Source: Dehalococcoidia bacterium (GTDB lineage: Bacteria; Chloroflexota; Dehalococcoidia; Bin125). Taken from it: a stretch of 64,000 nt of DNA. The position numbers and the translations under genes are program-made. Each line of letters opens with the position of its first letter. Positions within the stretch are counted from its first letter, which is position 1. Shown one piece after another: positions 10,154 through 23,341 of the stretch. The notes below the pieces were generated by a model. That model was not told the DNA's origin, did no database searches, and saw only the letters and a list, made by a program, of their open reading frames with translations. The DNA lies in NCBI GenBank assembly GCA_022825855.1, contig JAJDWB010000020.1, positions 1 through 64,000 of the forward strand. Direction: 5' to 3'.

Positions 10154-10957
10154 ATGACCCAGCACGACGAAGACGCAAGCGCCGGAGAGTCCGTTGCCTC
10201 CGGACTCGTGCCCCGCTACTTCCTGGACGAGTCGGCCCGTGTCGAGGGCGACACCATCATCATCACCAGCGGCAAGGCCAACCGGCTCAAGCGAGTGATG
10301 CGAATCCGCCGCGACGACCCGCTGGAGTTGGTCCATCCGCCCAGCGATCGGCTCTATCACGCGGAAGTGGAACGCGTGACCCGCGACGAAGTGATCTGCA
10401 GGGTGGTCCAGTGCCGGCCGCTGCGTGAGCTGCCGCCGCCGCGGATCGTGATTTCGGCCTCGCTGATCCGACCGCAGCGCTACGACTTCATGATCGAGAA
10501 GGCGACCGAGCTGGGCGTCGACGAGATTCGGCCGGTCTGGTCGCAGCGGGCCCTGATCAAGGGCGACGCGAACCAGCGGCTGCATCGCTGGCGACGGCTC
10601 GCAACCGAGGCGGCCGAACAATGCCGGCGCGAATATCGGCCGACAATCTATCCGCCCGTGGAGGTCATCGACCTGATCCAGGAGGAACCCGAGCCGAACT
10701 CGCTGCGCCTGTTGGCCTCGGCGCTCGAACCGGACCAGCGAATCTTGCCGGTCTTCCAGCGCCGCCGAGACCGCGGCCAGCCGCCGCCCGATCGGGTGCA
10801 TCTGCTGATCGGACCGGAGGGCGGCTACACGCCCGAAGAGGCCGGCCTGGCCCGGGCCCATGGCTGGCTGCCAATTTCGCTCGGCAACCGACCGTTGCGT
10901 GCCGAGACCGCCGCCATCGTCGCGCTGGCGCTGACCCAGGAAGCGGCCAGGTCCTAG
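10154..10957 (+). CDS. rsmE: 16S rRNA (uracil-1498-N3)-methyltransferase RsmE
   Basis: RsmE (267 aa) methylates U1498 of 16S rRNA using SAM and has a SPOUT (knotted) fold. The N-terminal PUA-like part contains RYFLDE and HHVL-equivalent SGKANRLKRVMR. The C-terminal SPOUT domain has EKATELGVDEIRP, LLIGPEGGYTPEE and LGNRPLRAETAAI, the family signatures for cofactor binding. The ATG at 10154 is chosen because GGGGAGG precedes it and because it matches the family's N-terminus; upstream in-frame codons overlap the SDR gene. The stop overlaps the convergent M23 gene stop by a shared CTAG. Confidence 0.95.
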   Translation: MTQHDEDASAGESVASGLVPRYFLDESARVEGDTIIITSGKANRLKRVMRIRRDDPLELVHPPSDRLYHAEVERVTRDEVICRVVQCRPLRELPPPRIVISASLIRPQRYDFMIEKATELGVDEIRPVWSQRALIKGDANQRLHRWRRLATEAAEQCRREYRPTIYPPVEVIDLIQEEPEPNSLRLLASALEPDQRILPVFQRRRDRGQPPPDRVHLLIGPEGGYTPEEAGLARAHGWLPISLGNRPLRAETAAIVALALTQEAARS

Positions 10958-12099
10958 CTGCGGGCGAGGTTGGTCGACTTCAGCGCGTTGGCCGGGTTGA
11001 GGTCCTGGAACGGGTCGGGATACTCCAGCAACCGGATCCAGGGGAGCGGATTGACGGTCACTCCACGTACGACGACCTCCCAATGCAGGTGCGGCCCGGT
11101 GGCCAGTCCGGTGGCGCCCATCCGCCCGATCAGATCGCCCTGCTCCACGACCGTGCCCGAGGTTTGCAAGACCTCCGAGAGGTGGTAGTAGCCGGTGAAG
11201 ATGCCGGCCCCGTGATCGACGATGATCCCGTTGCCCCGCCGCCGCGTGCGGCCGGCCCAACTGACAACGCCGCTGTTGGCCGCCTTGATCGCCGCTCCGG
11301 TCTCGCCGCCAAAGTCCATCCCCGTGTGGTACTCGGAGATCGGGCCGCCGTTGAACGATCGCTGCTCGCCGTAGAGCGCCGTGATCTGGCCGTCGGCGGG
11401 AGGATTGAACACGCCCAGCCAGTGCAGTTCCGGCGACAACGTCGTCTGGAAGGGCCGTCGCGCGGACTCGTCGGCGCGGCGCACCGACGGATCCAGCAGG
11501 GCGGCGTTCGGGCCGTCGATCTGGATGTTGTCGATCGTCCACTCGTAGGCCACGATCTCGATCACGGTCTCCTGCCAGAGCAGTTGTTCGCCGCGCGGGC
11601 CCCAGACCGAGATGCCCAGCGCCTGTGGACCGACCTGGGCGTTGGCGTCGATGCCGAAGAATCCCACGAAGCGGTCCTCGCTGCGCAGCAGCGAGAAGGT
11701 CTGGCCCTGCCACCAGAGCGAGGCAGTCTCGGCGCCGGGCGCTTCGACCACGACCAGCACCGTCTCTCCCTGGGAGATCGGGCTGGGCATGACGTAGACC
11801 TGCGGCTCGGCAATCTCCTGCGCGACGACGATCTGTTCCTGAGCCGCCTGCGCCTGCGCTTGCCCGCCGTCCTGCTGGTCGGCCTGTGCCTGGGCTACCG
11901 GCGTGTCCGCGCCGTCGGGTGGGTCCGAGGCGGGAGGAGGCGCGACCTGGCGGCCGGTCGCAAAGGGATCGAGATCGTCGTCGCCGCAAGCCGTGAGCAA
12001 TAGCCCGGCGCCGACGCCGACGAAGACACGCAGCAGCGTGCGCCGGCTGAGTCGTACCGGACCGGTCACAATTCGCTCGGGATCAGCCGAATCCAGCAT
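10954..12099 (-). CDS. M23-family peptidase-like lipoprotein with twin-arginine-type signal
   Basis: The N-terminus holds an SRRTLLR twin-arginine-like motif, a hydrophobic stretch and the lipobox LLTAC (Cys about residue 38), so it is probably exported folded and lipid-anchored. A Gln/Ala-rich linker follows, then a beta-rich middle domain. The C-terminal LytM/M23 domain has YHTGMDFGG, the central NGIIVDHG segment and GPHLHWEV, which supply the zinc ligands, so the peptidase site looks intact. M23 enzymes cut peptide cross-links or act as morphogenesis factors. An alternative TTG start lies at 12108. It converges on rsmE and diverges from the MoxR gene. Confidence 0.9.
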
Positions 12100-12184
12100 C
12101 TCGACCAATCCACTTTACACACATCGGGTACGCTCACTGCAATTGCGCCAATCGCCGGGCGGACAGTTAGCGGAGAGCTTCGCG

Positions 12185-13135
12185 ATGGACGATCCCCGAA
12201 CCGTGTTGCTGAGCGTCGTCGCCAACGTCGAACGGGTGATTCTTGGCAAGACCCCTGAGGTCAGGCAAGCGGTAATCGCGCTCGTCGCCGACGGTCACTT
12301 GCTGATCGAGGACGTACCCGGCACCGGCAAGACGATGCTGGCGCGGGCCCTCGCTGTCTCGACCGGCTGCACCTTCAATCGCATCCAGTTCACGCCCGAC
12401 CTGCTGCCCTCGGACGTTACCGGCGTCTCGGTCTACAACCAGAAGACCCAGGACTTTGAGTGGCGCCAGGGTCCGATCTACTCCCAGATCGTGCTCGCCG
12501 ACGAGATCAACCGGGCCACGCCCAAGACCCAGTCGGCATTGCTGGAGGCGATGGAAGAGCGTCAGGTTACGGCCGACGGCGTGACACGGCAGTTGCCGCC
12601 GCCGTTCATGGTCATGGCGACCCAGAACCCGGTCGAGTACGAGGGCACCTTCCCGCTGCCCGAGGCGCAGCTCGACCGCTTCCTGCTGCGCATTCACCTG
12701 GGCTATCCCGACGCCAACGACGAGGTCGCGGTGCTTGAGGGCCAGCAGCAGCAGCACCCGATCCAGTCGCTCAGCCCGGTCACCTCGCCTGAGGAAGTCC
12801 GCGAGATTCACCGGGTCGCCCGCGATATCTGGGTGGACCCGCAACTCAAGCAGTACGCCGTGCAACTGGTCGCGGCGACCCGCTCGCACGAGGCGGTCTA
12901 CCTGGGCGCGTCGCCGCGCGGCTCGCTGGCGCTGTTCCGCTGCGCCCAGGCTTCGGCGCTGCTCTTCGGCCGCGACTATGTGATTCCCGACGACATCAAG
13001 ACCCTGGCCCATGCGGCGCTCGGGCACCGGATCATCCTCAGCCCCTCGGCGCAGGTGCGCAATCAGGACGCGCGCACGGTGATCGACGACGTGCTGGATC
13101 GCGTGCCGGTGCCGGGCGCCCGCGCGGCATCATGA
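12185..13135 (+). CDS. MoxR-family AAA+ ATPase (cluster 1)
   Basis: This 316-aa MoxR ATPase contains Walker [14 protein letters not shown], the MoxR-typical [17 protein letters not shown], Walker [27 protein letters not shown], sensor [22 protein letters not shown], and the lid domain. MoxR ATPases act as chaperone-like assembly factors and are almost always next to DUF58 and VWA or transglutaminase genes, as here. The ATG at 12185 matches the family start (an upstream open stretch is antisense to the lipoprotein gene), with GGAGAG upstream. A DUF58 gene follows after 59 bp. Confidence 0.95.
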
Positions 13136-13194: not shown

Positions 13195-14631
13195 GTGCGC
13201 GGCCTCGGCGCAGCCATCGCCAGACCCTTCCGTCGCGCCTGGCGCGCGACCTTCGGTACCCGGCGCTCGCTGAGCATCGTCGTCACGCTGACGATTGTTG
13301 CGTTCGCCGTCGGCTTCGCCTCGAACTACTGGTTGCCGCAGCGGCTGGGCTACACGCTGCTCTTCGGTCTCGCCCTGGCCGCGCTCTGGACCTGGTCGTC
13401 GGGACAGGGCGTTCGCGTGCGCATGTCGCGGTCACGCGATCGGGTGCAGGCCGGCGAGTCGATCATCGAGCGCTTTGAGGTGATCAACGACTCCGCCATC
13501 CCCAAGCTCTGGCTGGAAGTGGCTGAGGAGTCCGACCTGCCGGGACACACGGCGCAGTTCGTCACGTCGCTCTCCCGCAGCAGCCATCGCAATTGGCGCG
13601 TGCAGACCACCTGTCACCGCCGAGGGGTCTTCAACCTGGGCCCGATCACGGTGCGCAGCTCGGACCCGTTCGACATCTTCAGCCGCGAGCTGCGCTTCGG
13701 GCATCGACGCGGGTTGGTCGTCTATCCGCGCGCGCTGGAGCTGCCCCGCTACTCCGCGCCGCCGGCCAATCTGCCCGGCGAGGGGCGCTTCCGCCGGCGC
13801 ACGCATTATGTCACTCCGAACGCTTCGGGCATCCGCGACTACGAGGCGGGCGACTCGGTCAACCGCATTCACTGGAAGAGCAGCCTGCGCACCGGTTCGC
13901 TCAAGGTCAAGACGTTCGAGCTCGACCCGGCCTCGCACCTGTGGGTGATCCTCGACCTCTCCAGCCAGGATCACATCGGCAGCGGCGACGATGCGACGAT
14001 CGAGACGGCCGTGACCGTGGCGGCCTCGGTCGTGCGGCTGTTCATCAACCAGAACCGCTCTGTCGGGCTGATGATGTTCGGTGAGCGTCTGGACGTGATC
14101 GAGCCGGATCGCGGTTCCCAGCACTTCGGCCGCATACTCGAATCGCTGGCCGTCGCTCAACCGGTCGGAACCGTGCCGGTCGCCTCGATCCTCTATCAAC
14201 AGTCGCGGCGCTGGGGCCGCCATACGACCGTGATCGTGGTCACGGCGTCGACCGATCCGCGCTGGCAGGGGGCGATCCGCACCCTGACTCATCGCGGCGT
14301 GAAGGTCGCGGTCGCGCTGCTCGATCTCGAGTCGTGGGGCGGACGCGCCGGCGCCGCCGGCACGGCGGCTGAGCTTCGCGCCCTGGGTGTCCAGGTCAAC
14401 GTGATTCGCCAGGGCGACTACATCCCGGCGGTGATGGTCGGACAGATTCCGGGCGGGCCGATGATGAGCGGCGCGGCGGCGTCGGCCGCTGCCATGTCCG
14501 CCGGCGCAGCCAACGGCGCCGACGGCGCCGCCGCGACCGCGCAGATGGACCTGGAAGAAGTGGGCGCGGCGACCCGAGGGGGCGATGCCGGGTACGCGGC
14601 CGCCCCCGACGACGAGGCGGCCCTGCAATGA
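13195..14631 (+). CDS. DUF58 membrane-anchored protein (cluster 1)
   Basis: This 478-aa protein starts with a GTG and has two N-terminal hydrophobic helices (about 25-45 and 50-65). It then has a beta-sandwich region (RFEVINDSAIPKLWLEV, CHRRGVFNLGPITV), and the DUF58 core GIRDYEAGDSVNRIHWKSSLRTG, followed by a VWA-like domain beginning LWVILDLSSQDH. The C-terminus is a low-complexity Ala/Gly/Met tail (about residues 420-478). DUF58 proteins pair with MoxR ATPases in cell-envelope or stress modules. The gene overlaps the transglutaminase-like gene by ATGA, indicating translational coupling. Confidence 0.93.
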   Translation: MRGLGAAIARPFRRAWRATFGTRRSLSIVVTLTIVAFAVGFASNYWLPQRLGYTLLFGLALAALWTWSSGQGVRVRMSRSRDRVQAGESIIERFEVINDSAIPKLWLEVAEESDLPGHTAQFVTSLSRSSHRNWRVQTTCHRRGVFNLGPITVRSSDPFDIFSRELRFGHRRGLVVYPRALELPRYSAPPANLPGEGRFRRRTHYVTPNASGIRDYEAGDSVNRIHWKSSLRTGSLKVKTFELDPASHLWVILDLSSQDHIGSGDDATIETAVTVAASVVRLFINQNRSVGLMMFGERLDVIEPDRGSQHFGRILESLAVAQPVGTVPVASILYQQSRRWGRHTTVIVVTASTDPRWQGAIRTLTHRGVKVAVALLDLESWGGRAGAAGTAAELRALGVQVNVIRQGDYIPAVMVGQIPGGPMMSGAAASAAAMSAGAANGADGAAATAQMDLEEVGAATRGGDAGYAAAPDDEAALQ

Positions 14632-17486
14632 ACCGCCCGCCGCAGCAGAACCCGACCGAGCAGCCCGACGCGCCGGCCACGCTGGCGGCCGAGGCCGAGC
14701 GCAGCTTCTTCGCCAGAAGGAGCTCGACCGAGACCCTCGTCGTCTCGGGCGAAGCGCGCTCCTTCTCCAGGACGCAGCGGCTGATGGAAGCGACGATCAC
14801 CTTCGGCATCCTGCTGCTCGTCGCGCTCTCCACCGCCAACAGCATCTACGTCGCCAACTGGGTCGACGACATGCCCGACCTGCGCGTCACGGCGACCGCC
14901 GGCGTGCTGCTGGCGCTGATCGTGGGACGGGTTCGGCGGATTCGCTTCAGTCTGGCGCTGCTAATCGGCTTCCTGGTCGGCGGACTGATCATCATGGCCC
15001 AGATCACCCAGCTCGAGACGCTGGGCGGACAGCCGCTGTTCTGGGATCGATTCACCGACTTCGGCTTCCGCTTCCAGGACTGGTTCAATCAGGCGTTCAG
15101 CTCCGGGCTGACGACGGACAACCTGCCCTTCGTCTTCTTTACCGACGTGTTCGTCTTTGTCGCCTCGTTCCTCGGGGCCTACGCAGTGGCGCGCTGGCGG
15201 AACCCGTGGATCGCGATGATCCTGCTCGGCGCGCTGCTCGCCGTCAACGTCTCCTATCTCTCCGACCGCCAGTGGAATCTCTCCTACGGCTTTTTCCTGA
15301 CCGGCGCGATGCTGCTGCTGATGCGCGCCTCGCTGTTGCGGCGCATGGACCGCTGGCGGGTGCAGGGCTCGGCCTACCCGGACTGGATCTCGCTCTCCTT
15401 CCTCGGCGCGACGTTCATGGCCATCGTGCTGCTGCTCACACTGTCCCGGGTGCTGCCCAGGCCCGACGAATCGCAGGCGCTGGAAGATGCCTGGGCGGCG
15501 ATCGCCGAGCCGTTTGAGGGCCTCAACGACGACTTCCGCCGGCTCTTCAGCGGGATCGATTCGCGCCGCGGCGTGCCGGTCCACTCGTTCGACGATTTCC
15601 TCGTCATGCAGGGCGACATCGATCCGGGCGACGCGATCGTCATGCGCGCAGCCGCCACAGAGCCGGGACTGTTACGCGGCGCTGCCTACGACGAGTACAC
15701 CGGGCGCGGCTGGCGCCAGTCACCGTCGGTCTCCAGGACCGTGCCCGAACTGGAGCCGATCAGCGGCACGAAACCGACCGACGACACCTCGCTCGAGGAC
15801 GGCGGCGGAGTGATCGCCTCCGATTACATCGACCGACGCCCGGTCGCCGCCCAGATTTCCGTCGAGCGATCGCCGGCCGTGCTCTTCTCGTTCGGCGCGC
15901 CGGTGCTGGCCAACAAGGACACTCGGGTGGACACGCTGGCCTCGGTCGACTTCGAGATTGACTTTTCCGACACCTCGCGCTTTGCCGGGACCGACCTGGA
16001 GCCGGCCCTGAGCGCGATCGCCGACCGGATCGCCGCCGGCAACGCCGATCCCGACGACGACATCGAGTCACCCTCGGCCGACGAAGTGGCGACGTACGTG
16101 CCGACGCAGTACTCGCTGATCGAGGTCGATGTCGACTCGACCAGCGGTCTGCCGGTCGGTCTGCTGCTGCGCTCCAACCCGGAGGAGACCGACGTGCTCT
16201 CGCTGCGCCCGCTGCAGCGACGAGTGCGGGCCGGGTTCACCTACCAGATCACGGGCACGGTCTCGGGAGCGAACGAAGAGGCGCTGTCCGGCGCCGGCGA
16301 CGACTATCCGCTGTGGGTGACCGAGACGTTCCTGCAACTGCCGGACTACGACGAGGAAGAGCGGGCCAATCTCGACAGCCTGGTAGCCACCATCGCCGGC
16401 AGTTTCAACCTGGGGCCCGACCCCGAGCGCGCCGACGGCGGCTACAACCCGTATGCGATCGCCGCGGCCGTCGAGACATACCTGCGCTCGGCGCCGGCGG
16501 TCGACGAAGAGGGTCGCATCATTCGCAACGAGGACGGCGAACCGGTCCCGCTGTATCCCTTGACCACCGAGATTGAACTGCCGCCGGCCAAGTCGGACGC
16601 GGTCTACTGGTTCCTGTTCGAGAACTGGGAGGATGGCCGTCCGATCGGCGGCTACTACGACTACCACGCCTCCTCGATGGCGATCCTCTTGCGCGTCGCC
16701 GGCGTGCCGGCGAGGATCGCGACGGGCTTTGTCCTGAGCGGCAACAACTTTGACGACCGGACGCAGAACTACATCGTGCGCGGCCACGATTCCTACGCCT
16801 GGGTCGAGGTCTACTTCCCCAACTACGGCTGGGTCGACTTCGACCCGACCCCCAGCACTTCGGCCGACGAGGCGCTGGCCTCGATCGCGGGCGGCGGCGC
16901 AGGCGTGCGGCGGATCGCGGCGCAACGGCTGACCACGCCGCGCTTCGACCTGCGTCCCGGCGTCGGCGGCGGACCGCTGACCGATGTCGAACTGACCGAC
17001 ATCCTGCAATACCTGGCGGCAGGCACGATTCCCGGCGAAGGCGGAGCGCTGAGCGAGGGTCCGAGCAAGTGGATCTGGCTGGGCCCGACGATCGGCGCGG
17101 CCGTCTTCGTGGGAGCCCTGCTGCTCATCTGGTTGATCTGGCGGCTGTCGCTGCGCGGCCTCGAGCCGACCGCGCGACTCTGGGTCTCGGCCTCGCGACT
17201 GGCCCGCTGGATCGGCGTGCGCGCCGAACCGTCGACGACGCCGCAGGAACATGCCCGCGCGATCGACGGCGCGCTGGGGCTCGGCGACCTCGCGCTCGAC
17301 CTCGCCAATCGCTACACGGCGACGCGCTTCGGCCGCAAGTCGCTGAGCGATGTGGAGCGCGCAGAGACGATCGAGATCTGGAAGCGCCTGCGCGCCGGCC
17401 TGATTCGATCCGCCTTGCGAATTCCGGCGCGACCCGCGGCGGCGGACGACGAAATGGAATCGGCGCCGGCGCCTGCCGGCGACTGA
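14628..17486 (+). CDS. TgpA-type membrane transglutaminase-like protein with Cys and His replaced by Tyr
   Basis: The 952-aa protein has a run of about six N-terminal membrane helices (residues 45-280), a large extracytoplasmic region, a transglutaminase-like domain (about 640-745), a further membrane helix (about 820-845) and a C-terminal DUF4129-like segment (QEHARAIDG to WKRLRAGLI). The transglutaminase landmarks are present (LLRVAGVPARIATGF, AWVEVYFPNYGWVDFDPTPST). However, the catalytic Cys is Tyr677 (GYYDYHAS against the usual GxCExFAS) and the catalytic His is Tyr723 (DSYAWVEV). Only the Asp (739) remains. It is thus predicted to be a non-catalytic scaffold. Third gene of the MoxR-DUF58-transglutaminase unit. 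Confidence 0.92.
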   Translation: MNRPPQQNPTEQPDAPATLAAEAERSFFARRSSTETLVVSGEARSFSRTQRLMEATITFGILLLVALSTANSIYVANWVDDMPDLRVTATAGVLLALIVGRVRRIRFSLALLIGFLVGGLIIMAQITQLETLGGQPLFWDRFTDFGFRFQDWFNQAFSSGLTTDNLPFVFFTDVFVFVASFLGAYAVARWRNPWIAMILLGALLAVNVSYLSDRQWNLSYGFFLTGAMLLLMRASLLRRMDRWRVQGSAYPDWISLSFLGATFMAIVLLLTLSRVLPRPDESQALEDAWAAIAEPFEGLNDDFRRLFSGIDSRRGVPVHSFDDFLVMQGDIDPGDAIVMRAAATEPGLLRGAAYDEYTGRGWRQSPSVSRTVPELEPISGTKPTDDTSLEDGGGVIASDYIDRRPVAAQISVERSPAVLFSFGAPVLANKDTRVDTLASVDFEIDFSDTSRFAGTDLEPALSAIADRIAAGNADPDDDIESPSADEVATYVPTQYSLIEVDVDSTSGLPVGLLLRSNPEETDVLSLRPLQRRVRAGFTYQITGTVSGANEEALSGAGDDYPLWVTETFLQLPDYDEEERANLDSLVATIAGSFNLGPDPERADGGYNPYAIAAAVETYLRSAPAVDEEGRIIRNEDGEPVPLYPLTTEIELPPAKSDAVYWFLFENWEDGRPIGGYYDYHASSMAILLRVAGVPARIATGFVLSGNNFDDRTQNYIVRGHDSYAWVEVYFPNYGWVDFDPTPSTSADEALASIAGGGAGVRRIAAQRLTTPRFDLRPGVGGGPLTDVELTDILQYLAAGTIPGEGGALSEGPSKWIWLGPTIGAAVFVGALLLIWLIWRLSLRGLEPTARLWVSASRLARWIGVRAEPSTTPQEHARAIDGALGLGDLALDLANRYTATRFGRKSLSDVERAETIEIWKRLRAGLIRSALRIPARPAAADDEMESAPAPAGD

Positions 17487-17495
17487 GCCCGCCGG

Positions 17496-19364
17496 TTACC
17501 AGTCCAGACCTTGCTCTCCGAGGTTGAGCCGCCCGGCCGCGAGCGGCTCGCCGGGCACCGCGCGAAACGCGTCGAGCACGGCCAGTGCCTGATCGAGGCT
17601 GGCGTCTTCGAGCGGCAGGTCGTCCAGCGCGGCCTGGAGCTCTTGCAACGCCTGCTCGCGGCGCTCGGTCAGCGATTCCTCCTCGGCGAACGTGGGCGCA
17701 GTCGGCGGACCTCCGCCGGCTTGCCCGGGCAGTGCCGTCGGAGCGCCCTGTCCCTGCGCGTCGGTCGCTGCTTCGGAGCTCTCGGGCTCGGATTGCGCCT
17801 GTTCCGTCCGCTCCGGCGTCGCCGACTGGCCTGACTGGCCTGAAGTCTCGGGCTCGTCACCGGCGTCGTCCGAGTCCTCAGTGCCGTCCTGCTCCAGCGA
17901 TTCGAGGATGGAGTTGACCAGTTCGAGGTTGACCTTGGCGTCGAGCAGCGAGGACGACTCGCGGAGGGATTCGATGAAGGCGGCCCGGGCGCCGAGCAGA
18001 TCGTCATTGGCCCAGCGGTGATTGCCCGTGTGTAACCAGGCCAGCGCGCGGACGCCGGCATCCTCCGAGCGCAGCGCCGCGAGCGACTCCGTCTCCGCGC
18101 GGTCCAACTCGCCCAGGCGGTGCAGCGCGCGTCCCGCGTTGAGGTGCAGGCGCGGGTCGACGCCGGCATCCGTGCGGCGGGCGAGACGCTGCGCCTCGCG
18201 CCAGTCTTCGAGCGCCTCGCGGTACTCGCCCGCCACGTAGTGGATGACGCCCTCGCGATTGGCCTGCTCCACGCCCGGACCGGCACAGCCTCCCACCAGC
18301 GTGAGCGCCGCGACCAGCGCGCCCAGCGACACGAGGCCTCGGCGTCGTCCCAGCGTCCAGCCGAACACGCGAGCCGCTGCTGCTAGGACCAGCGCCAGCG
18401 CGGCCGCGCCGGCGAACCACTGGAACTGCTCGTCCAGGGACGCCTCTACGACGACCGCCTCGCGGATCAGGTCGAAGGCGGCCAGGTCCGCGTTCATGCT
18501 CGACATCGCGCCGGGTGAGGCCAGTTCGATGTAGCGGCCCCCACCGGCCTCGGCGAGGGCGCGCAAGCGCTCGGCGTCGAGCCTGGTCACGATCGGCTCG
18601 CCGCTGCGCGGATCGATCTTCAGGGCCCCCGACCGGGGCAGGGCGATGTTCGCTCCGCGCTCCGAACCGACGCCAACGGCGAACACCTGCAAGCCCAGGT
18701 CTCGCGCCGCCTGCGCCGCTTCGACCGCGTCGCTGCCTGTGCCCCGGTCATGTTCTTCTCCGTCCGTGACCAGCGCGATCGCGCCGTTGACGCGGGTGTC
18801 GTCGTCGGCTCCGCGCAGGATGGCGGCGGTCGCGAGTTCGATGGCGCGGCCCATGCCGCTGCCGGGCGGGACCAACGCCTCGCCGGGTTGCAGCGCCTCC
18901 AGCACTTCCAGCGCGGCCTCGTGATCGCGGGTCAGGGGAAAGCGCAGGAAGGCGTCGCCGGCGAAGATCACGAGCCCGATCCGGTCGCCGCGGCGGCCGT
19001 CGATCAGGCGGCGAATCTCCGCCTTGGCCGCGCTCAAGCGGTTGACCGGCTGGCCCTGTCCCTCGGCGACGTCCTCGGCGGACATGCTGAGGGAGACATC
19101 GAGGGCGACCACGAGCGAGACATCGGGCAGGCCGAGCGTCTGTTCGCCCGGATTCCACATCGGCCGCGCCGCCGCGACGCCGATCAGGACCAGCGCCAGC
19201 ACCAGCAGCAGGCGCGACAGCGCCGCACCGGCTCTGCTGCCCTCGACAGCGGCGCCGACCGCGGTTCGGTGCAGCCTGCGCGCTCGCCAGAGCCACCACC
19301 AGGCGACCGCGGCGGCGGGAATCAGGGCGAGCAAGGCCAGCATCGCAGGTGATCCCAGAGCCAT
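17496..19364 (-). CDS. BatB-BatC fusion: VWA domain membrane protein with C-terminal TPR region
   Basis: The ATG at 19364 is preferred because it overlaps the stop of the preceding gene by one base (TGATG). Two N-terminal helices (about 3-25 and 50-68) precede a von Willebrand A domain with an intact MIDAS motif DVSLS (89-93), TDGEE and the closing FAVGVGS. A third helix (about 318-335) follows. Then comes a hydrophobic segment ending in LVGGC (Cys about 360) that looks like a lipobox, TPR repeats (YREALEDW to SLRESSSLLDAKVNLELVN) and a Glu/Ser/Gln-rich tail. This is the domain content of BatB plus BatC in one chain. Last gene of the Bat-type operon, ending 9 bp from the convergent cluster 1. 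Confidence 0.9.
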   Translation of the reverse strand: MALGSPAMLALLALIPAAAVAWWWLWRARRLHRTAVGAAVEGSRAGAALSRLLLVLALVLIGVAAARPMWNPGEQTLGLPDVSLVVALDVSLSMSAEDVAEGQGQPVNRLSAAKAEIRRLIDGRRGDRIGLVIFAGDAFLRFPLTRDHEAALEVLEALQPGEALVPPGSGMGRAIELATAAILRGADDDTRVNGAIALVTDGEEHDRGTGSDAVEAAQAARDLGLQVFAVGVGSERGANIALPRSGALKIDPRSGEPIVTRLDAERLRALAEAGGGRYIELASPGAMSSMNADLAAFDLIREAVVVEASLDEQFQWFAGAAALALVLAAAARVFGWTLGRRRGLVSLGALVAALTLVGGCAGPGVEQANREGVIHYVAGEYREALEDWREAQRLARRTDAGVDPRLHLNAGRALHRLGELDRAETESLAALRSEDAGVRALAWLHTGNHRWANDDLLGARAAFIESLRESSSLLDAKVNLELVNSILESLEQDGTEDSDDAGDEPETSGQSGQSATPERTEQAQSEPESSEAATDAQGQGAPTALPGQAGGGPPTAPTFAEEESLTERREQALQELQAALDDLPLEDASLDQALAVLDAFRAVPGEPLAAGRLNLGEQGLDW

Positions 19365-20329
19365 CAGGGCAGCCTCCGCCAACGGGTCGAGCGCAGGGCC
19401 AGTTCGAGCACGATCAGTAGACCCGCCGCCAGCAGCAACCAGGGGCCCAGCTCGCTCGTTGTCAGAAAGAGCTCGTCGCCCACCCGTTCACGCTCGAGGT
19501 CGGAAATCGATTGGTATGCGTCGGCCAGCTCTCCGGGGTCGGTGGCGCGGAAGTAGACGCCGCCGGTCTCGTCGGCCATGTAGATCAGGGTCAGTTCGTT
19601 CAGGTCGACGCCGACCTGCCGCGCCTGCGAGGGCAGGCCGATCGTGTAGAGCCGGACGCCCACGGCACGGGCGACCGCCGCCGCCTGGTTGGGGGTGATG
19701 TCGGGCACGTTGTTCTCGCCGTCGGTCAGCACCACGACGATGCGCGAGGCGGCGTCGGACCCGCGCAGCAGATCGATCGCCTCCATCGTGGCGACGCCCA
19801 GCGCGGTGCCGTCGGGAATCAGGCCGCTGCGCACGGAGACGTCGATCATCGCGTCGATCGCGTCGAGGTCCAGCGTGAGCGGGCTCAATACCAGCGCGCG
19901 GCGCTGGAACATGACCAGACCGATGCGGTCGGAACCGCTCGCCTCGCGCTCGGCGACGAAGTCGCGAGCCACGCGGCGCGCGGCTTCCATCCGCGATTCG
20001 TCGCTGGAGATGCGCGTGATCGCCATCGACGACGAGGCGTCAATCACGAGCACGATGTCGATCCCCTCGGCCGGGCGGATCGCTTCGACGGTCGTCGCCT
20101 GGGGCCGCGCGACGGCGATCACGATCAGCACCAGTGCGAGCACGCGCAACAGGCCGAGGAAGGGCAGCGCCCGCAGCCGCCGGCTGCCCGGTCCGGCGGC
20201 GGGCGGCGCGCCGAAGAGCTGCGGCAGCAGATATCGGGGCTGCGGCAGCCGCGCCTCGCGGCGCAGCAGCCAGGCGTAGGGAATCAGCAGGAAGAGCAGC
20301 GCCAGCAGAGCGGGGTCGTCGAGTCTCAC
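19364..20329 (-). CDS. BatA-like VWA domain membrane protein
   Basis: From the GTG at 20329 (overlapping the upstream stop, GTGA) the protein has 321 aa. A hydrophobic N-terminus (7-22) and a second helix (about 56-75) lead into the sequence ARPQ, typical of BatA/BatB, and a VWA domain with an intact MIDAS DASSS (97-101), a SGSDRIGLVMF segment, LTDGENN and LYTIGLPS. A C-terminal membrane helix (LLLAAGLLIVLELAL) follows. The bulk of the domain should lie outside the cytoplasm. Frames upstream of the GTG lie inside the preceding gene in another register and are not coding. Confidence 0.9.
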   Translation of the reverse strand: MRLDDPALLALLFLLIPYAWLLRREARLPQPRYLLPQLFGAPPAAGPGSRRLRALPFLGLLRVLALVLIVIAVARPQATTVEAIRPAEGIDIVLVIDASSSMAITRISSDESRMEAARRVARDFVAEREASGSDRIGLVMFQRRALVLSPLTLDLDAIDAMIDVSVRSGLIPDGTALGVATMEAIDLLRGSDAASRIVVVLTDGENNVPDITPNQAAAVARAVGVRLYTIGLPSQARQVGVDLNELTLIYMADETGGVYFRATDPGELADAYQSISDLERERVGDELFLTTSELGPWLLLAAGLLIVLELALRSTRWRRLP

Positions 20330-21207
20330 GAGGACGGGCCGTCCTCCCAGATCGCTTCGGCGAGCTGCAGGTAGCCCTGCAGCCGCTCCGGCGTGGGGCG
20401 CTCTCCGCCGAACTGCACCCGGTCGCAGGCCTCCAGCAGCCGCGTCGCGCGGAGCGCCACGACGCCGGGCGCGCCGGCTGCCGAGAGCGCCGGACCGATC
20501 TCCGACGCGGTCAGCGCGGTCGCGGGCAGGGACCAGTCGCGGCCCAGGCGGGCGCGCACCGAGGTGGCGAGCCGCCGGCACTGCTCGGCCGCCTCCAGCG
20601 AGCCGTCCATCTCAAACGAGACCGCCGGGCCTGGTCCCGACACCGCCGCCGGCTCGGACGCCGGGACGGTGGATCTGCGCGTCCACTGACGCGCCACTCG
20701 CGCCGCGACGAAGCCGAGACCGATGCCGATGATGGCGACGATCCAGGGCGTGAAGCTGCGGCCCTCGGATTCGAGCAGATCGGGAGCGGTATTGGGTCTC
20801 GCTTGTGCGTCGCCGGTCAGCACCGAGACCACGGAGATCAGGACCGGATCGAGGGTAACCGCGTCGAGCCCGCCGTCGGCGCGGCGAATCGGTATGGACG
20901 GCAGGTCGACCTCGAACGAGCCGGTCGTGAAGGCGCGGGTGTGGAAGACGACGAGCGTCTGCGTTTCGTTGACCTCCGTGATCAGCGGCGCGGACGGCTC
21001 CATCGCGCCCATTTCGACCAGCGACGCGTCCATCGCGATCGCGTCGCCGGGGGCATGGGTGATCGTGACGCGCACGGCGACCGGATCACCGACCGTGAGG
21101 CCGACGAACGGATCGACCTCGACTTCCGCGGCGGGCTCCTGCGCGAGCACGGCGGAGAGGCCGAGCAGCAGCGCGGCAACGGCTGCGGCCATCTTGAACC
21201 GCGTCAT
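20326..21207 (-). CDS. BatD-like exported membrane protein of the Bat operon
   Basis: A 293-aa protein with a cleavable-looking signal peptide (FKMAAAVAALLLGLSAVLAQ), a beta-rich domain (VGLTVGDPVAVRVTITH, TGSFEVDLPSIPI), one membrane helix (about 155-172, FTPWIVAIIGIGLGFVAARV) and a helical cytoplasmic tail ending QLAEAIWEDGPSS. This matches the general plan of BatD/DUF4381-type proteins in Bat operons, although similarity is to layout rather than a sharp motif. It begins with an ATGA overlap with the DUF58 stop and ends in a GTGA overlap with the BatA-like gene, so the operon is tightly coupled. Confidence 0.75.
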   Translation of the reverse strand: MTRFKMAAAVAALLLGLSAVLAQEPAAEVEVDPFVGLTVGDPVAVRVTITHAPGDAIAMDASLVEMGAMEPSAPLITEVNETQTLVVFHTRAFTTGSFEVDLPSIPIRRADGGLDAVTLDPVLISVVSVLTGDAQARPNTAPDLLESEGRSFTPWIVAIIGIGLGFVAARVARQWTRRSTVPASEPAAVSGPGPAVSFEMDGSLEAAEQCRRLATSVRARLGRDWSLPATALTASEIGPALSAAGAPGVVALRATRLLEACDRVQFGGERPTPERLQGYLQLAEAIWEDGPSS

Positions 21208-22175
21208 TGCCGGCTCCGGCGTTGGCGGAACAGGCCGATCAGGATGGGCAGCCAGTCGTCGTCGGTGCCGATCAGGACCGCGTCGCAGCCGCAGTGACGC
21301 AGCCGCTGCAGCATCGCGTGCTGCTCGGCGCGCAGGGCGATTTCCTGGCGCTGGGCGGTCTCCAGGTCGGCCAGCACCGTGTCGCCGCGCTCGGAACCGC
21401 CCCAGAGGACGAGTCCTTCCGCGTTGGCCGAGGCCAGGGCGACTTCGCGGCGATCGCGCAGGCAGACGGCGACGACATCGTGGCGTCTCGCGAGCCGCGC
21501 CAACGCCGGCTCCCAGAGGTGATCGGGGTGAGTGGCGACGAAGTCGGAGATCACGATGACGACGCCGCGCTTGCGCATCACGCGGCCGGCGTAGCGCAGG
21601 GCGCGGGCGAGTTCGGTACGGCCGCCGGTGGGCAGCCTGAGCAGGTCGCGGAGAATGCGCAGCACGTGGCTCGATCCCTTGTCCGGGGGCACGGAGAGCA
21701 CGACGTCGGTCCCGAACGCGGCGGCGCCGACCAGGTCGTTGGCGGACGCCGCCGCCAGTCCCAATGCGCCTGCGATCTCGACCGCGCGGTCGCGCACCGA
21801 CGCGCCCGAGGCGGCGTAGGCCATCGAGCCCGAGACGTCGACCAGCAGCAGGATGGTCTGCTCGCGTTCCTCGACGTAGCGGCGGACGACCGGCGTGCGC
21901 AGTCGGGCGGTGGCCTTCCAGTCGATGGCGCGGACATCGTCGCCCGGGTTGTAGGGTTGCAGCTCGGCGAATTCGAGGCCGCGGCCGCGAAACGCGGTGC
22001 GGTACTCGCCGGCTAGCGCGTCGCGCAGCGCTCGGCGGGCGCGGATTTCGATCTGCCGGACCTGTGTGCGCACATCGTCCAGCGTGGGCGGCTCGGCGGC
22101 AGGCGGGGGCGCGGGCGGCGCGATCCACTCGCGGACGCGGCTGAGGCGAGAGCTGGGGCGCGGCGCTGAGGGCAT
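21204..22175 (-). CDS. DUF58 protein of the Bat operon (cluster 2)
   Basis: The 323-aa protein contains the DUF58 signature FRGRGLEFAELQPYNPGDDVRAIDWKATAR, cut here into its recognisable pieces FRGRGLEFAEL, YNPGDDVRAIDW and VVRRYVEEREQT, followed by a VWA-like domain LLLVDVSGSMAY with an intact DxSGS site and VVIVISDF. There is no transmembrane segment, unlike the cluster 1 DUF58 protein. The ATG at 22175 is the first start after the divergent frame; the stop of the MoxR gene lies 23 bp upstream. It is the shorter, soluble DUF58 type usual in Bat operons. Confidence 0.93.
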   Translation of the reverse strand: MPSAPRPSSRLSRVREWIAPPAPPPAAEPPTLDDVRTQVRQIEIRARRALRDALAGEYRTAFRGRGLEFAELQPYNPGDDVRAIDWKATARLRTPVVRRYVEEREQTILLLVDVSGSMAYAASGASVRDRAVEIAGALGLAAASANDLVGAAAFGTDVVLSVPPDKGSSHVLRILRDLLRLPTGGRTELARALRYAGRVMRKRGVVIVISDFVATHPDHLWEPALARLARRHDVVAVCLRDRREVALASANAEGLVLWGGSERGDTVLADLETAQRQEIALRAEQHAMLQRLRHCGCDAVLIGTDDDWLPILIGLFRQRRSRQ

Positions 22176-22198
22176 GGCCAGACCAGTCCAACCCCGGA

Positions 22199-23269
22199 TC
22201 AGGGCACCGGCAGCGCCGTGAGCAGTTGCGCGATCACGTCGTCGGCCGAGACCTCGTCGGCCTCCGCCTCGTAACTCATGACGATCCTGTGGCGGAGCGC
22301 GTCCAGGGCGATGGCCTTGACGTCGTCGGGCGTGGCGTAGTCGCGGCTGGAGAGCCAGGCCAGCGCCCGCGCGCCCATCGCCAGCGCAGTGGTCGCGCGG
22401 GGCGAGGCGCCGAACTCGACGTAGGCGGAGAGCTCCTCGACCATTCGGCCGGGCGCGCGGGTTGAGCGCACGAGCTGCACGATGTAGTCGCGCAGGCGGG
22501 GCTCGACGCGCACCTCGGCGACGGCCGCGCGGGCCTGGAGGACGTCGTCCAGTTGCATCACCGGCGCGACCGCCGCGGCGTCGCCGGCGAGGGTGCGGTC
22601 GAGGACCTCGCGCTCGTCCAGTTCGCCGGGATAGCTGACCCGGACGTTGAGCATGAAGCGGTCGAGCTGGGCCTCGGGCAAGGGGTAGGTGCCCTCCTGC
22701 TCGATCGGATTCTGCGTGGCGAGGACGAGGAAGGGGGCGGGCAGGGGGAAGGTCTGGCCGCCGATCGAAACGTGGCGCTCCTGCATCGCCTCGAGCAGGG
22801 CCGACTGGACCTTGGCCGGAGCGCGGTTGATCTCGTCGGCCAGCAGGACGTTGGTGAAGATCGGCCCCTGGCGGACTTCGAAGCGCGATTCGGCGGCGTT
22901 GTAAATCTCGGAGCCGGTCAGGTCGGCTGGCAGCAGGTCGGGCGTGAACTGCAGGCGGGTGTAGGAGGCATGCAGGCAGCGTGCCAGGGTCGAGACGGTG
23001 AGCGACTTGGCCAGCCCGGGCACGCCTTCGACCAGGCAATGTCCGTCGCAGAGCAGCGCGACGAGCAATCGTGTGACGAGGCCGTCCTGGCCGACGATCA
23101 CGCGGCCGATCTCGGCGCGCAGCGCGGCCAGCGGCGAGTCCTGCGGCAGGTCCAGCGCGGGCAGCGGCTCGGGATCGGCCAGGGCGACGGCCGGCGCCGG
23201 AGACGGCGCGACCGGCGGCGCGGGGCGCTCCGCCTCGGTTGAACCGTCGCCTCGGGCCCATTGCGACAC
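22199..23269 (-). CDS. MoxR-family AAA+ ATPase of the Bat operon (cluster 2)
   Basis: This has Walker [36 protein letters not shown], Walker [24 protein letters not shown], and [22 protein letters not shown]. The Walker A has GLAKS, the common MoxR variant. A Pro/Ala-rich N-terminal tail of about 45 residues precedes the AAA+ domain. Two GTG starts are possible: 23269 (chosen, with AAAGGCGGGGG just upstream) and 23320. First gene of the Bat-type operon MoxR-DUF58-BatD-BatA-BatBC. The paralogue at 12185 shares the overall motifs but lacks this tail. Confidence 0.93.
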   Translation of the reverse strand: MSQWARGDGSTEAERPAPPVAPSPAPAVALADPEPLPALDLPQDSPLAALRAEIGRVIVGQDGLVTRLLVALLCDGHCLVEGVPGLAKSLTVSTLARCLHASYTRLQFTPDLLPADLTGSEIYNAAESRFEVRQGPIFTNVLLADEINRAPAKVQSALLEAMQERHVSIGGQTFPLPAPFLVLATQNPIEQEGTYPLPEAQLDRFMLNVRVSYPGELDEREVLDRTLAGDAAAVAPVMQLDDVLQARAAVAEVRVEPRLRDYIVQLVRSTRAPGRMVEELSAYVEFGASPRATTALAMGARALAWLSSRDYATPDDVKAIALDALRHRIVMSYEAEADEVSADDVIAQLLTALPVP

Positions 23270-23341
23270 GTCGCCCCCGCCTTTCTGCTGCGTCTGCGTC
23301 CCGTGGTTCAGTCTATCCACGAACGCCTACCATTCACGGAC

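Follow-up and report, generated by a model that had tools for sequence, protein, structure and literature searches.

A TgpA-type protein with tyrosines at the catalytic positions in a MoxR–DUF58 operon of Dehalococcoidia

The operon and its membrane protein

The window, i.e., the whole 64,000-nucleotide stretch analyzed here (Dehalococcoidia bacterium, contig JAJDWB010000020.1), carries on its forward strand a gene for a MoxR-type AAA+ ATPase (12,173..13,135; the listed ORF starts at 11,903, and the conserved part begins near 12,173), followed by a gene for a 478-aa DUF58 protein (13,195..14,631) and by an ORF of 952 open codons for a TgpA-type membrane pseudo-transglutaminase of 952 aa (14,628..17,486), hereafter pseudo-TgpA. 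The pseudo-TgpA start and the DUF58 stop codon overlap in the letters ATGA, an arrangement found in operons with translational coupling. MoxR-DUF58-transglutaminase operons are widespread.

The DUF58 protein of the window lacks the VWA-type DxSxS metal site and bears LDLSSQDHIG instead. In the window and in over 100 other operons, the TgpA-linked DUF58 proteins are devoid of DxSxS and show LDLxxxVQAGxG in its place, whatever the triad state of the TgpA partner. The idea that loss of the metal site is peculiar to operons with a dead transglutaminase was rejected, since the site is also missing in the intact-triad operons.

The module is adjoined by a divergent gene for an M23 peptidase with a lipobox-like N-terminus (10,954..12,108, reverse strand), which occupies the same place relative to the MoxR gene in all five genus loci reaching that far. 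On the other side lies a second, convergent MoxR module (17,496..23,320, reverse strand) comprising MoxR, a canonical DUF58 protein that keeps the metal motif (LLVDVSGSM), a BatD-like membrane protein, a VWA protein and a VWA+TPR protein. This Bat-like module stands tail to tail with pseudo-TgpA in 6/6 sampled genus loci, in five of which its MoxR falls beyond the locus end. A scan of viral contigs turned up no relatives.

A Transglut_core domain (16,602..16,847, forward strand; residues 659–740), matched in Pfam at 7e-15, is better conserved than any other part of the protein. Matches to TgpA_N (residues 85–425, 9.4e-5) and DUF4129 (residues 857–914, 4.6e-5) are weak, both being under the curated cut-off. 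Hydropathy points to six hydrophobic segments outside the core, five of them N-terminal TM segments (about 51–277) and one a C-terminal TM segment (815–845); some 530 periplasmic residues (278–810) lie in between, and a DUF4129-like cytoplasmic tail (857–914) follows at the C-terminus. The architecture is shared by relatives. TM segments are arranged around a periplasmic region in the same way in TgpA (PMC3507681), and the TgpA of Pseudomonas aeruginosa (PA2873; PDB 6G49/6G4H) likewise has six TM segments, with Transglut_core at the end of its large periplasmic region. The P. aeruginosa protein resides in the inner membrane and is critical for viability, and its periplasmic domain shows transglutaminase activity in vitro (PMC3507681). 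It differs from the window protein in having the Cys-His-Asp triad where the latter has Tyr at the Cys and His positions, and the insert that precedes the Cys helix is longer in the window's family. Of the features that define the TgpA family, the window protein shows a periplasmic Transglut_core alignable to TgpA, the TM/DUF4129 layout and the MoxR + DUF58 operon, but in place of the Cys-His-Asp/Glu triad it has Tyr677, Tyr723 and Asp739. Judged from sequence, it is a TgpA homologue by descent, and we do not class it as an active transglutaminase.

Residues at the catalytic positions

A sequence-only reading of this DNA had placed Tyr677 at the position of the catalytic Cys and Tyr723 at that of the His, with only Asp739 left of the triad. 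Alignment to P. aeruginosa TgpA 6G49, the sole solved relative found by sequence, bears this out. The direct phmmer alignment of the window protein to 6G49 gave 3.5e-10, and a profile of 33 relatives gave 4.7e-26, the surroundings of the motifs being ungapped. GYYDYH is thereby placed on GFCAHY, and DSYAWVE on DAHAWVE. The direct and the profile alignments agree, with no gap near either motif, so the assignment of the Cys and His positions is correct: codon 677 (TAC, Tyr; 16,656..16,658, forward strand) corresponds to the catalytic Cys, codon 723 (Tyr; 16,794..16,796, forward strand) to the catalytic His, and codon 739 (Asp; 16,842..16,844, forward strand) to the third member of the triad, which is Glu in most Chloroflexota relatives. 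No cysteine occurs anywhere in the 952 residues, so that the nucleophile cannot have moved elsewhere in the protein. With the triad positions fixed by alignment, the protein is predicted to be dead by Cys-His chemistry, just as that reading had supposed.

The pattern is uniform in the window's GTDB family. Tyr677, His680 (codon 680; 16,665..16,667, forward strand), Tyr723 and Asp739 were present in all 18 orthologues examined, the window's own included, with codons 723 (TAC/TAT) and 739 (GAC/GAT) varying synonymously, which argues that the pattern is not due to chance. Orthologues retaining Cys and His, with this genome alone changed, would have spoken against the reading, and none was found among these 18. 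The catalytic loss is neither recent nor peculiar to the window's genome.

To count triad states, TgpA proteins were sampled across the class (294 genomes) and the phylum (201 genomes), the DNA being fetched for 100 places in addition to the loci returned by searches. The census relied on an alignment restricted to the N-terminal part, because the Transglut_core profile penalizes and under-ranks dead forms (in a Transglut_core search, the window protein's own match ranked below the matches listed); the triad state therefore did not bias the sample. Among the 165 full-length TgpA, 77 had both Cys and His intact, 29 had lost Cys and kept His, and 59 had lost both. Outside the class Dehalococcoidia, 54 of 60 were intact, and His was never lost (0/60). 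The 45 class families sampled comprised 15 with doubly dead proteins only, 14 with Cys-less proteins keeping His only, 13 with intact proteins only and 3 mixed. One PBP-containing genome (G072; loci L038 and L128) harbors both an intact C/H/D TgpA-like protein and a Cys-less A/H/N protein.

Origin and maintenance of the doubly dead clade

In a quick tree of 165 rows, 58 of the 59 doubly dead TgpA formed a single clade (SH-aLRT 99), and in a careful tree of 64 rows under a site-heterogeneous model its 20 representatives were monophyletic with a support of 100/100. The motif columns had been removed before both trees were built. Its members come from 58 genomes in 51 genera and 14 families, and the tree implies two state changes for His and nine for Cys. 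The simplest reading is that both catalytic residues were lost once, in a common ancestor of 14 or more Dehalococcoidia families, and that the lineage radiated thereafter. Outside the main clade, an isolated TgpA with an Ala/Leu/Asn triad (L133, genome G021) apparently represents an independent loss of His.

Both catalytic positions are aromatic in 51 of the 58 clade members, as Phe-Tyr, Phe-Trp, Phe-Phe or Tyr-Tyr, usually with Phe paired to Tyr, Trp or Phe. The pair is largely family-specific, Tyr-Tyr being the version of the window's own family. Tyr is conserved at both sites among the family orthologues examined (18/18), and other aromatic pairs occur in the wider clade. At the third triad position most of the clade has Asn or Ser, and the window's family has Asp. 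Residue 680 is most commonly His in the clade (39/58), and is Phe or Tyr in most intact-triad enzymes.

These data bear on the suggestion that the protein performs another chemistry at the old site through the two Tyr, together with His680 and Asp739. The invariance of Tyr677, His680, Tyr723 and Asp739 in the 18 family orthologues is what such a reaction would lead one to expect. However, Tyr is absent from both sites in 27 of the 58 clade members, with Phe or Trp instead and an otherwise unchanged architecture, and in most of the clade Asn or Ser takes the third position. A Tyr-dependent reaction thus cannot be the function shared by the clade, and we regard an alternative chemistry as very improbable.

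The surroundings of the protein have been kept along with it. MoxR and DUF58 genes lie directly upstream in 39 of the 40 loci of the aromatic group with enough upstream DNA, the remaining one having MoxR alone, so the MoxR-DUF58 module recognized in the first reading is real and conserved. No other Transglut_core domain was found in the window's genome, and each of the f33 genomes listed shows just one Transglut_core match; hence, in these genomes the dead protein is not simply the helper of an active paralogue. Some other clade members also have small transglutaminase-like proteins apart from TgpA, and in two of these Cys and His were seen to be intact.

Furthermore, the core is the most constrained part of the protein. 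In the window's genus, Transglut_core has a dN/dS of 0.064, the lowest of all regions, the others ranging from 0.11 to 0.21. Across the window's family about half of the core residues are invariant vs. 0–23% in other regions, and between families of the clade the mean identity is 48% in the core outside the motifs vs. 31–35% elsewhere, which is near the situation in the intact-triad enzymes. The ratio of core to TM-region distances is 0.79 in the dead clade vs. 0.69–0.73 in intact enzymes; measured against the TM region, the core thus evolves a little faster than in intact enzymes, possibly a sign of mild relaxation. Taken together, the results indicate that pseudo-TgpA is maintained by purifying selection, perhaps with mild relaxation. 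Pseudo-TgpA shows two of the marks of a pseudoenzyme, an inactive homologue kept by selection: the loss of essential catalytic residues and long-term conservation under purifying selection.

We also considered that the substitutions are neutral and the protein is on its way to disappearing. The slightly faster evolution of the core would fit such a decay, as would family f34, where the motif has eroded further (P/Y, V/M, V/L), and families f22 and f25, which carry odd residue pairs. Against it, the reading frames are mostly open in 51 genera, the sites stay aromatic in the great majority of the clade, dN/dS is low and the operon is conserved. Given the purifying selection in the window's genus and the long persistence over 14 families, relaxed decay is largely refuted and highly unlikely; the earlier view that selection rather than random decay lies behind the double change is thereby strengthened.

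Another explanation would be that the lineage lost its cell wall, so that catalysis became useless, and some Dehalococcoidia have indeed lost peptidoglycan synthesis (PMC10284905). The window's genome, however, keeps peptidoglycan genes, with five PBP transpeptidase matches and one MurG match. Moreover, a PBP transpeptidase was found in every genome that contributed one of the 59 doubly dead TgpA, and MurG in nearly all of these genomes, so wall loss is not the reason for the dead triad; for the dead clade this explanation is contradicted by the data, and we give it next to no credence. The genomes without PBP have instead Ser-His-Glu or intact TgpA.

The Ser-His-Glu form, in which Cys is replaced by Ser, was found in the class at 20 loci (L022, L025, L045, L058, L059, L067, L095, L098, L103, L129, L131, L132, L135, L143, L167, L168, L181, L185, L188 and L190), all 20 in genomes where no PBP transpeptidase was detected. 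In papain-like folds, some activity is possible with Ser (PMC10318531). Because the 20 of 20 rests on two to four phylogenetically independent pairs, a tie between Cys-to-Ser TgpA and wall loss is suggestive only and is not claimed here.

A possible non-catalytic role in the MoxR machine

All sampled descendants keep the dead protein beside the same AAA+ ATPase partner, and its lasting job is therefore probably binding or holding rather than catalysis. We consider it fairly probable that this ancient pseudo-transglutaminase serves as a non-catalytic periplasmic module of the MoxR machine, with a binding or structural role. Starting from what the data establish, namely the homology, the dead triad, the single origin, the conserved operon, the purifying selection and the lack of another Transglut_core in the window's genome, we infer the ligand binding, the identity of the ligand and the coupling to MoxR as follows. 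A TgpA-type ancestor lost Cys and His once, the protein being retained as the membrane partner of the cytoplasmic MoxR ATPase and its DUF58 adaptor. The periplasmic transglutaminase fold may bind a peptide or an envelope protein at or close to the former cleft, neither cutting nor crosslinking it, and the aromatic pair would fill the former active site, where it would either contribute to the contact surface or act as a structural plug. Through the TM bundle and the DUF4129 tail, the bound state might then be passed to MoxR-DUF58 or force received from it, much as other MoxR-VWA pairs remodel their targets. Putative binding of peptidoglycan is compatible with a genome having five PBP transpeptidase matches and one MurG match.

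The AlphaFold models were poor (pLDDT 39 for the periplasmic region and 56 for the core), the underlying alignments being shallow and made of the window and genus sequences, and Foldseek with the core model (pLDDT 56) returned nothing at E under 0.001. The geometry of the pocket, including whether the two Tyr side chains lie together in it, is therefore argued solely by homology, from the gapless alignment to 6G49.

The main rival to a binding module is that the TM bundle, the DUF4129 tail or the N-terminal periplasmic region serves MoxR-DUF58, while the transglutaminase fold is a mere spacer whose aromatics fill the cavity of the lost site. Conservation extends to the whole protein and the operon, beyond the core alone, and both the large aromatics in 51 of 58 members and the swapping of F, Y and W between families fit cavity filling. 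The strong constraint on the core in the window's genus (0.064 vs. 0.11–0.21) nevertheless exceeds what would be expected of a spacer, and we hold this possibility to be unlikely.

The proposed binding module has partial counterparts in known systems. In NorQ-NorD and RavA-ViaA, a MoxR ATPase works with a VWA-type adaptor on membrane or metal proteins (PMC9976466, PMC10585395). The window's operon resembles these in pairing a MoxR AAA+ protein with a VWA-type adaptor, but the adaptor is a DUF58 protein lacking DxSxS and the partner is a pseudo-transglutaminase. Among inactive transglutaminases, mutations of the membrane protein RloB rescue the envelope defects of P. aeruginosa protease mutants (PMC12239564). 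Unlike pseudo-TgpA, RloB-type proteins are fused to seven TM helices and encoded in an operon with an ATP-grasp protein and an aspartic protease, and with matches up to an E of 1 considered, the window protein hit none of the RloB-type Pfam families. The inactive transglutaminase domains that occur in polymorphic toxins, for which peptide binding and cell-surface anchoring have been proposed (PMC3482391), have similarly lost the conserved Cys, His and Asp residues, but they are N-terminal in RHS-type secreted proteins rather than membrane partners in a MoxR operon. Finally, the pseudo-transglutaminases EPB42 (erythrocyte band 4.2) and FBXO21 have kept the fold and lost catalysis (PMC10318531); they are eukaryotic and of unrelated architecture. 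Since inactive bacterial membrane transglutaminases are already known, the kind itself is not new; in the literature searched, we found no description of a large dead clade of single origin inside the TgpA/MoxR family.

As a tentative and rather doubtful extension, the core function of MoxR-DUF58-TgpA may not be crosslinking at all. TgpA would then be a MoxR-driven periplasmic sensor or clamp, and catalysis an add-on that was dropped once outright in Dehalococcoidia, where an evolved ligand pocket with the aromatic pair would replace the active site, and several more times by the loss of Cys alone. A natural clade that keeps the machine without the catalytic Cys and His separates a catalytic from a non-catalytic role, so that the question of what MoxR-DUF58-TgpA does becomes testable.
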